This document shows positions 5,127-46,374 of a stretch of 64,000 bases of DNA, one piece after another. The DNA comes from Aphrocallistes beatrix. Lineage: Eukaryota; Porifera; Hexactinellida; Sceptrulophora; Aphrocallistidae. The notes under the pieces were generated by a model. It was given only the letters and a program-made list of their open reading frames with translations, did no database searches and was not told the DNA's origin. The position numbers and the translations under genes were made by a program. Location of the stretch: contig OY725505.1 in the NCBI GenBank assembly GCA_963281255.1, forward strand, positions 620,001 through 684,000, written 5' to 3'. Position 1 is the stretch's first letter. Every line of letters begins with the position of its first letter.

Positions 5127-5394
5127 TATAGGAAGAGGGACTCTGGTCAGAGAGTATTTGGAAAACAGAAATCTTATTAGACTCACAATATTGTGTTGTG
5201 CTATCAAATCTTTCGTAATTTTACATACAGTCGAAATCGATTTTACTTACTATTTCTTTACAGGCTCAAACAGTAAGAAAAAACGATGGATATTAAGATA
5301 GATTTGGCATTTTGTACACCAGTAATAGTCTGAAATAGTAAAAAATACCCAAAAAAGGAAGAATAACCCTGTGTAAGAGAAAAACAGTTTCGAC

Positions 5395-5592
5395 CAGGGT
5401 TTCATCCAGCTTTCCAAGGTCATACGCCTAAATGGACGTCACCATTTTTCTACGCCCTAGACTCATTTTTATATAGCAATTTTATATATGTTTTATGCCA
5501 CCGCCTAGCCCCAAAAATCATACGCCTAATTATGATCCATGAGATCAAATACGCGCCTCTAGGCGCGCCCAGTACGCCTGGATGAATGCCTG
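5395..5592. mobile_element. 198-bp hAT-type MITE with 8-bp target duplication
   Basis: Ends CAGGGTTTCATCCAG and CTGGATGAATGCCTG are inverted, and the exact 8-bp duplication GTTTCGAC lies at 5387-5394 and 5593-5600. The 8-bp duplication and CAG..CTG ends are hAT hallmarks. Confidence 0.85.
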
Positions 5593-5653
5593 GTTTCGAC
5601 TATGTTTTTAAGTCATTTTGGGCGGGGAAACCCTAAAAGTGAATTGGATATAC

Positions 5654-5712
5654 CCCAAGGCTATTAATTAATTAAGGGAGAGGGGACGCTCCCCTTGATT
5701 AATAGCCTTGGG
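5654..5712. repeat. Perfect 15-bp hairpin upstream of cyclin Y
   Basis: Arms CCCAAGGCTATTAAT (5654-5668) and ATTAATAGCCTTGGG (5698-5712) surround a GC-rich loop. It lies 69 bp before the CCNY start codon, so it is probably in the promoter or 5' UTR. Function unknown. Confidence 0.6.
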
Positions 5713-5780
5713 TCTTGGGTGTCCCCCAACTCTAAATCCGCCGCTGAACATTACTTTCTAAACTGTTATTAGGTGTTAGC

Positions 5781-6956
5781 ATGGGTAACTGTCTACGCCC
5801 ATATGTCACTCTCGCAGGCACAGAAGACAGACAACGCAGAAAGTCTAAAGACAGATCTAACGCATATTTACCTACAGAACCTGTACACATCGAGTCCACT
5901 ACACTACAGCATAACATTCCTGAATCCAGTAAACCTGTGGACTTAGATAATTCCAATGAGATGTTATCTCAAAACTCTGTCAAAAGTAGTCCATCAGTCG
6001 ATGCATATTCGAACGAAGTTCTCTCTAAAGAGAGTCTATTATCTGGAAATGAATTTACTCCCACTTTCCTCCCTACAGACCTAATGCATATTAGCGATCG
6101 AGAAGATCTAACAACTTTCACTGACACTCTCTTCCTCAAACGCTTCTACTCCCTCGTCAACCCATCTACCCTTGCCAAACCATCTTTCAGCAAGAAAAAC
6201 TCGATAGTTTCAGCCAATCGGAAATTCTCTTCAACCAGCAGTGTCTTCATGAATGACAGCACTGTTAGTCAACCGAATATGAAGCACACTTTAAAATGCG
6301 TGTCTTTGGCTCTCCACCATTTGATCGTGTTCGATGCACAGCATAATGATAAACTGGATGTCCCCATTTTTGATGAACGCATTCATCCTGTCTCGAATCA
6401 TAACTCATTCTCTACCAAAGAGATTTCCATCCCAGACACAAAGTACATTTATAAATTCATGAAAAACCTTTTCCAATCCGCACAGCTGACAGCAGAATGT
6501 GCCATTATAACTCTAATATACTTAGAACGTCTTCTCAGCTACGCAGAGATAAATATCACAGCTCCCACTTGGAAGCGAATCCTTCTGGGTTCCATTCTCC
6601 TCGCATCTAAAGTCTGGGACGATCAGGCTGTATGGAATGTAGACTACTGCCACATACTGAAAGAACTTCAAGTCGATGACGTCAACGAGATGGAACGCTA
6701 CCTTCTCGAACTCTTACAGTTTGACATAAACGTGCCTTCTAGTGTTTACGCGAAATATTACTTCGATTTACGCACGTTGGCTGATTTTAATAATATTTCA
6801 CTTCCGCTTGAACCGATGGATAAGAAGAAAGCATTACACTTAGAAGCAGTGTCTGTAGTGAATGATAACGAATTCGAGACTGAATTATTCTCTACCAATA
6901 GATCTAACTCGGTAGAACAAGTTTGTCCATCCAAATCTCACATAATTCTCAACTAA
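5781..6956 (+). CDS. CCNY: Cyclin Y
   Basis: A single-exon ORF of 391 residues. Cyclin Y is a membrane-tethered cyclin that activates CDK14/CDK16-type kinases and takes part in Wnt co-receptor phosphorylation (family knowledge). The protein starts MGNC, so Gly2 can be myristoylated and Cys4 palmitoylated after Met removal, as in known cyclin Y. HISDRED (about 103-109) and DSTVSQPN (about 159-166) match conserved family blocks. The cyclin box spans about 165-335, with SAQLTAECAI, ASKVWDDQAVWNVDYC and LLQFDINVPSSVYAKYYFDLR. It is about 50 residues longer than the human protein (341), mostly in a low-complexity Ser/Asn-rich stretch at 40-100. An AG at 5771 shortly upstream could be the acceptor of a 5'-UTR intron. 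No lesion is seen. Confidence 0.95.
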   Translation: MGNCLRPYVTLAGTEDRQRRKSKDRSNAYLPTEPVHIESTTLQHNIPESSKPVDLDNSNEMLSQNSVKSSPSVDAYSNEVLSKESLLSGNEFTPTFLPTDLMHISDREDLTTFTDTLFLKRFYSLVNPSTLAKPSFSKKNSIVSANRKFSSTSSVFMNDSTVSQPNMKHTLKCVSLALHHLIVFDAQHNDKLDVPIFDERIHPVSNHNSFSTKEISIPDTKYIYKFMKNLFQSAQLTAECAIITLIYLERLLSYAEINITAPTWKRILLGSILLASKVWDDQAVWNVDYCHILKELQVDDVNEMERYLLELLQFDINVPSSVYAKYYFDLRTLADFNNISLPLEPMDKKKALHLEAVSVVNDNEFETELFSTNRSNSVEQVCPSKSHIILN

Positions 6957-8565
6957 CTCTATTTTCAAACTCGTTTGATTAATGTGATACTAGTGTAACT
7001 ACCATTTTGATCCTACTAGACACTGTATTGTATGCAGAGTTTGATTCCATGTAAAGTATTTATTTTATATTCGTAAAATATAACAGTACTACCCTATTGT
7101 ACATTGTGAAAATTATAAATCCATGGTTGGGAATCATTATTAGCCAATTGATGGGGATTCTCGGGGAGACAGACTTTTGGCCGATGATACAGATTCAAAA
7201 CTTCGTCGCGATATATCGTCGGCCGACATATAACTAATTCAGCCATTTATTTACGTCGTTTGATCAAACTGTACTGTATCCCGTTATTTAGAATCACTCT
7301 CGAATATTCAGTATTACCTCGACCATGGGCATAGATAGCTTGTGTGGACCTAGCCCCAAAATTTTTGATTAAGGTCACTGTGTAGGAAATATACAAGCTA
7401 TAAAATACTGATTTAAATTGTTAATGAAATTTTATAAAAAACGTACCCCCCCAAATTTCCTATGCAAAGATTCGTCAACCCACTATGCCCATGATTTCAA
7501 CCAGTTTGTTTCCTTTACGTATACAGTAGAACTCAGATAAGACGTACCCCTTCGGGAAGGAATTATTAGTACGTACTAACCGAGTTTGTACTACATAGAA
7601 ATCTATATTATAGTGGATTTTGGTTCAGAGAAATGAGTGTGTACTAAACCGAAGAACGTACTATCCTACTGTACTATATTCTATTAGTGCATTATATAAT
7701 TTTAAAAACAACTATTTTGTAATGGAAAAAAACGATGGAAAAAAACCCGACTCCGACTATACCATCCAATTTTTTATTTGTAGTCCAGATTTCGAATATT
7801 ATACAGCTCCCTTAAAGCTATCTTATCTCCATAATGCGTAGTTCCATCTCGTGTTTGTGAGAACAAAGCCGGCGATTATGGTTCATACAAGTAGTATACA
7901 TGCATTATTGAATGGCCATTGAGTCTCATTCAAGTTTCATACTTACCATTTTGTATTCCTATAAAATTCTCCATTTTATAAGGATTTTTGTGTCTTATGA
8001 TGTAGATGTCTATCATAGGCACAAATAGCACAAGTTGGGATGGAGAGTGACTGAATGCTGATCCATTTGTTAATTTGGATGGATTTTAGCTACTCAATAT
8101 TGATTATTTACGTTTATTCGACATTGAAAACTCAGCTTTTCCGAACCCAGCAGGAATTATCAATATTTATTGACTTATTGTATAACGTAGATTCAATTAC
8201 TAATACAATACGTAGATCCCATTAAAAAATCTCGATTCTCCTCTGGAATAACTGACATCCAGGTATCCCAGTTAGTTGTAAAGTACTGCCATTCTCGTTT
8301 GGGCAAACAGTATAGCTATATTCCCTGAACAGGAATTTACATCGGATGTACTATAATTTTGCCGACTAAATGGTGTTCTTTCGGGAAAAAACATGAGATG
8401 TTATTATTTTGGCGAATAAATTCCATAATTTTGGCACACAAGGTATTTGCCCAAATAATGTTAGCCAAAAAAAGAACAATTTAATTGCCAGAATAATATT
8501 ACATCCAATATTAATCGACTAAATTCCAGTTAGATAACCACCAGTTCTCATTCAACTAACTTAGC
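6957..8565. other. Intergenic between CCNY and AP2M1
   Basis: No gene is supported. The stretch contains the MITE at 7524-7671; the rest is AT-rich. The AP2M1 promoter should lie in the last few hundred bases, but no clear core element can be named. Confidence 0.5.
7524..7671. mobile_element. 148-bp MITE, TA target duplication
   Basis: Ends CAGTAGAACTCAGATAAGAC and (reverse complement) CAGTAGGATAGTACGTTCTT share the CAGTAG terminus, with TA on both sides. It contains repeated ACGTACT/AGTACGT motifs. Probably a pogo-like non-autonomous element. Confidence 0.6.
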
Positions 8566-43590: not shown

Positions 43591-44615
43591 CGGTTAAAGC
43601 GAACAAGGTTTGATTCCCCAGCCTGTACAAATGCATGAAATTAACTTCGGGTAATACGAATTCCGGATAATACGTTCAAGTTTTGAAGGTTCTCTGGTTC
43701 GTATTAACGAGATTCGACCCTATTCGAATTATAATGATCACACATATTACTATAGTGAACAATATTCATCAATGGCTTTTTTTACAATCAAAAATTAAAT
43801 TATTCAGCTCTGGCATCAAGCGCAGGAATTGAGCGGATATTTTCAACATTTGGCTATATACATTCCAGCATTAAGGAATAGTCTTGGAATCGATACGGCG
43901 GCCAAGATTGTATTTATCTACAGAATGCTCTATCTCTATAAAATTGCGTACTAAATTTTCTCTTCTACATTTTCCTATTGCAATTGATCATAAACATGCT
44001 GAATTCAAGCAAAATTAAATCGATAATATGCTATTAAACTATCTGATTCTCAATCTTGTGGATTTATTACCAAAATAATATGACAAAATGTGAAATGAAT
44101 TGCAAAAAGCAATAAAAATTAAAAAAATCTGATTTAGATCCGATTTTTTTGATTACGTCACCGTCACCACACTGGAGACCATTGCCAAGATTCATGACAT
44201 CATCATGGCGGATCGACGAGTAACGGAGTGATACATTGCTATCGAGCTGGGTATCTCACAGGAACGCGTCCATACGGTCATCCGCAATGAACTCCAAATG
44301 TCGAAGGTGTCAGCTCGGTGGGTCCCAAAGCTCCTTTCAGCCGATCAGAAACGGACTCGGCACAACATGTCAAGGGACAATCTTGCCATTTTTAAGGCGA
44401 ATCCCGCGATTTTTCTCCTGCGATTCGTGACCGTGGATGAGACTTGGGTACATCACTTCCAACCAGAAACTAAACAACAATCGAAACAGTGGAAACATCC
44501 GGATTCTCCGGCTCCCAAGAAAGCCAAGACCGTGATGTCCTCAGGAAAGGTGATGGCTTCGGTGTTTTGGGATGCAGGAGTGTTGCTGGTGGATTATCTT
44601 GAAAAGGGTCGCACT

Positions 44616-46361
44616 TGTAGGGTTCTATTTGGGGGGGGTCCCCCCAAATTTGGGGGAGACCCCCCCAAATTGACAAATTATATGAATATTTGGGGGGGTC
44701 ACCCCCATTTTTTGGGGGGACCCCCCCCATTCACCAAGATTGAGTTTTAAATTTGGGATTCCCCATATACTTCACTTTAGAGGCATAATTGAATTTATAT
44801 TATGTGCAACCTCTTCAATTATATTCAATTGATACAAATTGGTCACAAGGGTTCTTCGTATTCATAAGGAATAGACTTAAATCAAACATAAGTGTAAATA
44901 TAGTGTGTATAATTTGTAATTACAGATTGTTAGTGTTCCTATAACCATTATTCATAAGTAGTAATAATTTTCTGATATTTTGTTGTTCAAATTAGAAGTT
45001 GGAGTTAGGATTTTTAAAAAAGATACTTATTCAAGATTATCAAAACTTGGTAACATCGCTGATTTTAAATTCATTTTCAATTGAAAAGGAGTCATAAAGT
45101 TGAACCGCTGTGGTTCTTTTAGGTAATCTTCAATTATCAACTGACACATCACAAAGTAAAAGCGTTAAAAAATTGAAAACTTCTCCAAACGATCTTCCAG
45201 AAGAAGATCTATTCAGGCACATCACAATTAAGTGGCGACATAAAATTAATCAAGACATTTTACTCCTAAAATTGGACTTTGAGCATCCATCAGAATTCAC
45301 CAAAACAACATATATAAAGCTAAGGAATTGTATTCCGAAAAAGACTATTTCAATCATTCCTGATGGTAATTATCTATATAGGTCCATTAGTTGGTGGTTA
45401 ACTTGTAAAGAAGACTTTCATGGGTTCATTCGAACCAAATTAGTGGATTATATGGAGTCATCTTCTCCCAGTAAACAATATATTAAGAACAAAACAAATG
45501 AATCAATAGAAGAGTACCTAGCTCGGAACAATACAATCATGTCAACAGTTTGGGGTGGTGATGTTGAGCTATTTAGTATGGCGATATGGCTACAAACAGA
45601 TGTATATGTATACATAAGTGATGGTTGGGATAAATTCTCTTTCAAAGGATTTAACCAAAAAGTAGGAAGAAACATTGCAAGTAGTCAAGCAATTTATCTT
45701 AGAAATGAGGCATCACATTATGAACCCATAGTATCAGTTGTTAGGAAGGAAATTTGTTAGGGAAATATAGGAACTATAGTGAATAGGACATTTAGGATTA
45801 GTTTTTCTTCTGAATTTCATTTTCTTTCTATTTCATCACTTATTTTCATTACTAAATTCATTTTATACTGTCATTTTATTCACTATATATTCTGTTTTAC
45901 TTTATCTGTAATACTAATGAGATCGTAACATAAATTGCTTTCTTTACTAAATTACAAGTAATTAAGGTAAAGCGTAAATGTTCAGAACTGAGTAGGAATT
46001 TTCAAGCTAAACTTGAATATATTACTAGATAATCAATATTCTTTCAAAACCATAATATAAAACTAAAATGAAGAAATCCTCTTAATATATTACTTGAAGT
46101 TGCATATTTTGGAGAGTTACCCCAAACTTAAAACTCAGTCTTGGTGAGTAGGGGGGTCCCCCCCAAAAAATGGGGGGACCCCCCTAAATATTCATATAAT
46201 TTGTCAATTTGGGGGGGGTCCCCCCTAAAATGTGGGGGACCCCCCCAAATGAAATCCGAGTTATATAAATGGGGGGGGCCCCCCAAAAAATGGGGAGACC
46301 CCCCCAAATATTATTCCAAATTTGTCAATTTGGGGGGGTCTCCCCCAAATAGAACCCTACA
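44616..46361. mobile_element. TG..CA element carrying an OTU-like ORF
   Basis: 1746 bp. The left end TGTAGGGTTCTATTTGGGGG and the right end (reverse complement) TGTAGGGTTCTATTTGGGGG are perfect inverted ends. The 5-bp duplication GCACT (44611-44615, 46362-46366) comes from the mariner, whose reading resumes exactly after it. At least four palindromic units on the left and seven on the right have the form G(5-8) TC or GA C(5-8), linked by AAATTTG or the motif TTGACAAATT. The single ORF (45123-45760) is OTU-like; no transposase is present. Ginger1 DNA transposons are known to have TG..CA ends and OTU or Ulp1 domains behind the integrase, so this may be an internally deleted relative (inference). 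Confidence 0.88.
45123..45760 (+). CDS. OTU-like cysteine protease domain, catalytic Cys replaced
   Basis: About 210 codons open from an acceptor-like TTCTTTTAG to TAG at 45758-45760. There is no early ATG, so a 5' exon or the transposase part is missing. The OTU core is recognisable: IIPDGNYLYRSISWWL, LARNNTIMSTVWGGDVELF, SMAIWLQTDVYVYISDGWD, then EASHYEPIVS. The catalytic Cys of the usual DGNCLFR motif is Tyr (TAT at 45371-45373, one transition from TGT). The catalytic His is present (45716-45718). OTU domains cleave ubiquitin-type linkages; this one should be inactive as a protease. It lies between the palindrome arrays of the element at 44616-46361. No internal stops. Confidence 0.65.
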
Positions 46362-46374
46362 GCACTATCACCGG

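Follow-up and report, generated by a model that had tools for sequence, protein, structure and literature searches.

Ginger transposons bear on the kinship between retroviral and Gypsy integrases and DNA transposases. Ginger1 is described as encoding a Gypsy-like integrase with YPYY, H2C2, DDE and GPY/F motifs, together with an OTU or Ulp1 domain (Bao, Kapitonov and Jurka 2010, PMC2836005). The same account gives it TGTNR ends, 4-bp target-site duplications (TSDs) of CCGG or CCGT, a length of 2.6-7 kb and a protein of 500-800 aa, and lists OTU families from Hydra, such as Ginger1-1_HM and Ginger1-2_HM, with one intron. Ginger2/TDD is described there as being without GPY/F and YPYY, preferring RTATAY, and making 4-bp TSDs, or 5-bp TSDs in TDD-4 and TDD-5. 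A later survey gives TSDs of 4 bp in Ginger1 and 4 or 5 bp in Ginger2, and describes IS3EU/GingerRoot, IS481EU and Polinton as lacking HHCC and having TSDs of 6 bp, or of about 4, 15 or 25 bp (Kojima and Bao 2023, PMC10045372). The GPF/Y module is treated as a hallmark that Ginger1 shares (Kojima 2025, PMC12440569). Searches of open-licence PMC papers turned up no more recent account of Ginger1 with 5-bp TSDs.

Here we describe an element from the hexactinellid sponge Aphrocallistes beatrix, found in a 64,000-nucleotide stretch of contig OY725505.1 that we call the window. Very probably it is non-autonomous and arose by internal deletion from a cut-and-paste DNA transposon of the Ginger superfamily, its parent (the C13 type, below) being one that would encode an integrase and an OTU domain; we put the probability of this reading at about 0.92. 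As a non-autonomous deletion copy whose OTU has lost its catalytic Cys, the element is nothing out of the ordinary. The group from which it comes adds a new variant to the Ginger superfamily: its features are combined in an unusual way, and its phased ends are striking.

Results

The window element and its insertion site

The element interrupts a mariner transposase fragment whose frame picks up again beyond the insertion. Its main features, in window positions, are the following.

44298..44615, + strand: mariner transposase fragment, the insertion target (Pfam Transposase_1, E 1.6e-13)
44611..44615, no strand: left target-site duplication GCACT, exact over 5 bp
44616..46361, no strand: whole element, 1,746 bp, TG..CA ends (direct reading and empty site)
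44616..44635, + strand: left terminal inverted repeat, perfect over 20 bp (35 bp at 91%), by inverted-repeat comparison
45110..45760, + strand: ORF of 216 aa with an OTU domain (PF02338), read as the remnant of the 3′ end of an integrase-OTU gene
46342..46361, - strand: right terminal inverted repeat, perfect over 20 bp, by inverted-repeat comparison
46362..46366, no strand: right target-site duplication GCACT, exact over 5 bp

The termini read TGTAGGGTTCTATTTGGGGG...CCCCCAAATAGAACCCTACA, with an inverted match that is perfect for 20 bp and 91% over 35 bp, and further imperfect inverted stretches are longer (107 nt at 84%). Elsewhere on this contig, a paralogous segment (L073, at about C19:712 kb) has the same mariner fragment and flanking repeats without the element, and crosses the insertion point uninterrupted with one GCACT. 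The window element was therefore inserted as a unit, making the 5-bp duplication. The insertion target sits in a segmental duplication, the two segments lying about 48 kb apart in opposite orientation and differing by about 0.7-1.7% mismatches and several gaps.

The sole long ORF of the element matches the Pfam OTU family with E 4.7e-7 and 30.8 bits (cut-off 23.3), and its homologous part starts at the deletion junction described below. A first-pass annotation made from the letters alone had reported perfect 20-bp inverted TG..CA ends, an exact 5-bp duplication, about eleven palindromes near the ends and a single OTU-like ORF. Each of these held up: the ends are present at 44616-46361, the empty-site paralogue confirms GCACT, 11 palindromes were counted where shuffled sequence gave at most 2, and Pfam recognises the OTU.

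Longer integrase-OTU relatives

The genome (100.5 Mb, 28 contigs) was searched with the element, the ORF, the ends and later the integrase. One relative, which we call C13 (C13:3061296-3065845, minus strand, 4,550 bp; TSD TGGAC read on the + strand), has ends as in the window element. Between them lie frames with integrase pieces, the core containing FERIQIDLTQ, QSDNGGEF and QGQVERFN, and then OTU. In C4F, a copy of a related family (C4:5138097-5143978, 5,882 bp, TSD GATAG), an integrase frame of 692 codons is followed by one TAG and then, in the same frame, by 177 codons of OTU, and Pfam assigns rve (PF00665, E 1.2e-15) and OTU (E 2.8e-8). C13, C4F and C10F each hold both integrase and OTU inside the same kind of ends and are flanked by TSDs.

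The closest solved structure to the integrase is that of PFV (E 1.8e-12). The zinc finger is spaced H-x4-H-x32-C-x2-C (HHCC) in C2F and aligns in C10F too, the C4F frame starting inside it; the catalytic core of C4F is spaced D-x64-D-x35-E (DD35E). The integrase-OTU part comes to about 870 codons. C13, C4F and C2F also have in common an upstream frame of 139-156 codons that ends in an AAG/GTA donor, and in C13 and C2F a TTTAG acceptor precedes the zinc-finger exon. Donor and acceptor, as read from sequence alone, likely mark an intron.

Frames were read in four full-length copies (C13, C4F, C10F and C2F), and in each of them the integrase-OTU gene is broken; other long copies, such as C6:2812259-2818620, fall outside this count. 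No reverse transcriptase was seen in the integrase-OTU elements, in frames read by eye and with Pfam on the main frames. The GPY/F letters are absent from the integrase. An SH3-like barrel is predicted in their place, which would fit a diverged version of the same module, short of proof. The AlphaFold model of the 692-codon C4F frame was poor overall (mean pLDDT 37.7) and gave no Foldseek match at E 0.001 or better; Ty3 integrase (7q5b) came fifth at an unreliable E 0.018. A 94-aa C-terminal piece was modelled better (pLDDT 71.4), again with no Foldseek match at E 0.001, and its VIA-align rows were tied among Tudor/SH3 folds, which for a predicted structure shows a common small barrel and not descent. 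The integrase piece of C10F had no relative in IMG/VR.

Target-site duplications

A whole-genome census with the 20-bp end pattern TGTAGGGTT, allowing at most one mismatch, found 90 ends, and the reversed-pattern control found 6. Pairing by eye those that face inward and span at most 6.4 kb gave 28 pairs and left out 34 of the 90 ends; two copies with one matched end each (C4b and C6x) stand outside the TSD count. Exact 5-bp TSDs flank 25 of the 28 pairs. The exceptions are C8:2255639, with an exact 6-bp repeat, C12:4128274, with a match at 4 of 5 positions, and C2:5052466, with none. An earlier, narrower end scan of loci already found had given 5-bp TSDs at 16 of 16 pairs. CCGG, CCGT or ACGG occurs as the TSD of none of the 28.

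Taken on average, the 25 exact TSDs are symmetric, with G..C at the outer positions counted 23 versus 3 and the next positions 22 versus 6, and so show weak GGNCC symmetry. All 56 ends of the 28 pairs start with TGTAG, partly by construction of the search pattern, which 50 of them match without mismatch and 6 with one.

A shared internal deletion

Compared with C13, the window element lacks an internal segment.

45135..45141, no strand: internal-deletion junction, a 7-nt overlap of the left part (to 522) and the right part (from 3369) of the C13 element

Element positions 1-526 match C13 1-522 at 98%, positions 520-1735 match C13 3369-4511 at 90%, and about 2.85 kb of the C13 type, integrase gene included, is absent. 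The identical junction is found in five copies, namely the window element, C4b, C7 and C6x by their letters and C4a by BLAST coordinates. Three of the five have both ends, and their TSDs all differ (GCACT, GTATA and ATACA), so the deleted form itself has moved. A junction common to five copies, taken with differing TSDs, indicates that the deletion happened once and that its product was then mobile several times without an integrase of its own.

Deletion derivatives occur in sister families too (C1a of the C4F type and C8a of the C2F type). There is also a non-autonomous group of about 2.4 kb (C4c, C4d, C6a, C6b, C3a and C10a; for example C4:4514672-4517077), with TGTAGGG ends, 16-21 G/C palindromes and 5-bp TSDs. 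These six and C12a match C4F over about 0.4-0.7 kb at one end, 0.4-0.5 kb in the 2.4-kb elements, and 0.7 kb at the other, at 89-96%. Their middle has no match longer than 120 bp to C4F, C10F, C13 or C2F; it measures about 1.0 kb, except in C12a, where it is about 2.0 kb. C4e, compared in one orientation, matches C4F at one end (91.7%).

G/C palindrome arrays

Both ends of the window element carry arrays of G/C palindromes, defined as four or more G, 0-4 nt, and four or more C.

44631..44728, no strand: left array of 4 G/C palindromes, centres 19.0, 42.0 and 20.0 bp apart
46151..46346, no strand: right array of 7 G/C palindromes, centres 18.5-43 bp apart

The remaining 62.25 kb of the window holds 1 such palindrome against 11 in the element, and 500 dinucleotide-preserving shuffles of the element gave a mean of 0.18 and a maximum of 2. 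Across 20 element copies, the 233 centre-to-centre spacings below 100 bp peak at about 20, 41 and 60 bp, and none falls between 24-36 or 48-56 bp. Since many copies are related, phasing was tested on single representatives against 20,000 uniform random spacing sets. The number of random sets matching the observed phasing was 1 for the window element, 19 for C13, 3 for C4F, 0 for C4d and 612 for C2F. Families A, B and C differ in their unit sequences, yet all keep the spacing close to multiples of 20.5 bp, the phasing of family C being weak (612 of 20,000 random sets equal it). Two or four helical turns between palindromes would line them up along a single face of the DNA. The palindromes are candidate binding sites for the integrase.

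Alternatively, the arrays may have no role in transposition and simply result from slippage or tandem growth of G-rich ends. Array length varies between copies by units of about 60 bp, and slippage is easy in long runs of G and C. A tandem unit that copies itself would retain its own spacing, so tandem copying could alone preserve the spacing inside a family. We rejected the idea that the 2.4-kb elements share just ends and arrays with C4F, as the opposite-strand comparison shows the longer shared ends given above, and one support for a role of the arrays is thereby lost. What stands against slippage is the spacing kept near multiples of 20.5 bp across three families with unlike units, weakly in the case of family C. 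We regard slippage as a serious contender whose chances lie somewhat below even, and prefer to read the palindromes as probable integrase binding sites.

The OTU frame of the deleted copies

Two catalytic positions of the OTU can be placed in the window copy.

45371..45373, + strand: OTU catalytic-Cys position, TAT (Tyr); all 10 other loci with the motif have Cys
45716..45718, + strand: OTU catalytic-His position (SHYEP), intact

The motif DGN(C/Y) was found in 11 of the 16 loci scanned, window included, with Tyr in the window alone; the remaining five gave no Cys-motif match. The OTU in the window copy should be inactive because the catalytic Cys is gone. Among the five deletion-class copies, only C4a has an unbroken OTU frame with both catalytic Cys and His. 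C4b has two 1-nt deletions, one common to C4b and C6x; C6x (C6:3054259 onwards) has a 1-nt deletion and an insert of about 3.3 kb, and C7 (C7:2385587-2388009) has an insert of about 0.46 kb with an 8-nt repeat at the join.

One might suppose that the OTU-only elements are a lineage of their own in which selection maintains the OTU because it aids the element, perhaps as a protease with an accessory role in trans or one that counters silencing. The first-pass annotation had raised the related idea of a new group that keeps OTU alone. The ORFs of the window copy and C4a are open over 200+ codons. Moreover, the private changes in the deleted line, with the shared T129A left out, number 9 non-synonymous to 7 synonymous against a site ratio of 3.88:1, for an omega of about 0.33 and P(<=9 N of 16) = 0.03, uncorrected; the raw count of 13:7 gives P = 0.10. 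This count leans towards some constraint on the OTU of the deleted line. However, the ORF has diverged as much as its flanks. The window copy differs from the other four deleted copies by 1.1-1.6% in the ORF, 1.1-3.1% in the left flank and 0.9-1.4% in the right flank, and from C13 by 1.1%, 0.5% and 1.9%, respectively. Four of the five copies are damaged, by Cys to Tyr in the window, 1-nt deletions in C4b and C6x, and inserts in C6x and C7. On damage and divergence we rejected selection on an OTU-only group as the main reading, though the N:S count leans the opposite way, and consider it quite improbable. The annotators' new group likewise dissolves into one shared deletion in five copies, with no slowing of OTU relative to the flanks and one OTU of five intact. 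We read the OTU of the deleted line as a relic, with the N:S count as a reservation.

Discussion

The reading of the window element as an internally deleted Ginger copy suggests the following course of events. A C13-type parent would encode an OTU cysteine protease behind an integrase-like transposase, the latter with HHCC, DD35E and a C-terminal barrel predicted to be SH3-like. A short-homology internal deletion would have taken out the integrase, and the OTU end would have survived by chance. Integrase supplied in trans may then assemble on the TGTAGGG ends, probably also on the adjoining helically phased G/C palindromes, and join the ends to the target across a 5-bp stagger with weak GGNCC symmetry, which would create the 5-bp duplications. 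In this way the deleted form was probably mobilised several times after the integrase was lost. In the full element, the OTU presumably strips ubiquitin from the transposase or from repair factors.

We place the group in the Ginger superfamily. Its full-length members C13, C4F and C10F have a Gypsy/retrovirus-like DDE integrase between terminal inverted repeats, with no reverse transcriptase seen, and the TGTNR termini of the superfamily are present, partly by pattern construction. The architecture is close to that of the OTU subtype of Ginger1: TGTNR ends, terminal inverted repeats, a length inside 2.6-7 kb, a Gypsy-like integrase with the H2C2 (HHCC) zinc finger upstream of DDE, a C-terminal OTU after the integrase, a likely intron and non-autonomous derivatives. 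In contrast to Ginger1 as described, the TSD is 5 bp and not a 4-bp CCGG or CCGT/ACGG, and the GPY/F letters are absent; these are the two failures for which we do not file the group as Ginger1 as published. It also differs in an integrase-OTU part of about 870 codons as against 500-800 aa, and in adding the conserved upstream frame and the phased palindrome arrays. YPYY was not recognised upstream of the zinc finger in a reading by eye.

Ginger2/TDD (TDD-4 and TDD-5 of Dictyostelium and metazoan Ginger2) likewise has TGTNR ends, HHCC and DDE, and no GPY/F letters, and TDD-4/5 share the 5-bp TSDs. However, an OTU is not described for Ginger2 in the available text of PMC2836005 and PMC10045372, and although the 5-bp length fits, the RTATAY preference does not, the group showing weak GGNCC symmetry instead. 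Gypsy LTR retrotransposons have a similar integrase core, TG..CA ends and TSDs of 4-6 bp; here neither LTRs nor a reverse transcriptase were seen, and there are terminal inverted repeats and an OTU after the integrase. IS3EU/GingerRoot, IS481EU and Polinton were ruled out by the presence of HHCC and the 5-bp TSDs. MULEs encode a MULE transposase and make TSDs of about 9 bp; they were ruled out by the integrase and the 5-bp TSD.

A captured host OTU gene or an unrelated element (MULE, LTR fragment, Polinton) moved by other means might be entertained in a genome where OTU-like sequences are abundant (150 of 150 scored match, among 331 candidates) and other integrase cores occur at 28-41% identity, several in frames of more than 1,000 codons that are presumably Gypsy, but we rejected MULE, LTR and captured-gene readings as highly improbable, since C13, C4F and C10F, all with TSDs, share one type of end enclosing both integrase and OTU, and their frames, read by eye and on the main frames with Pfam, showed no reverse transcriptase. 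The annotators had named an unrelated transposase such as that of a MULE, or the absence of the ORF from all other copies, as findings that would count against them; instead, an integrase serves as the transposase, and further copies do contain the ORF. The genome search they had proposed for full-length copies with an integrase yielded C13 and C4F, with integrase then OTU. Their doubt over a Ginger1-type 4-bp TSD was well placed, as tabulating the duplications gave exact 5 bp in 25 of 28 pairs. Their suggestion of a deleted relative of Ginger1 is supported in kind by the deletion and the integrase-OTU relatives, but the group is not Ginger1 as published.

The longer relatives combine traits that are not described together in the open-licence PMC papers searched. 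Tentatively, and at odds only a shade short of even, they could represent a third Ginger lineage. It would be defined by integrase-then-OTU order, TDD-like 5-bp integration with a GGNCC bias, the absence of GPY/F letters and an additional conserved exon upstream. Its ends would act as arrays of G/C palindromes every two or four helical turns, with the integrase binding many sites along a single face of the DNA. If a Ginger1 architecture does go with a 5-bp stagger and no GPY/F letters, then stagger and target choice have changed within one group. The natural deletion forms, with the integrase lost and the OTU lost or dead, are suited to asking what the OTU does, and the phased palindromes offer a concrete candidate recognition site that is testable.

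OTU domains occur elsewhere in this genome in frames of 1,006-1,272 codons, several of them multi-copy; a 1,041-codon frame is present at five places with the same score. At the two of these loci that were read (L058, C4:959828-963289, and L050, C3:6285606-6289166), the frame ends in the OTU, preceded by a region that Pfam leaves unnamed, and this type is probably another OTU-fused transposon group. Finally, locus L011 (C1:8286000-8295990) contains, at its positions 5258-7765, a long in-frame minisatellite of 32 copies of (T/A)QLVVER within a frame of 835 codons, where element pieces are nested.
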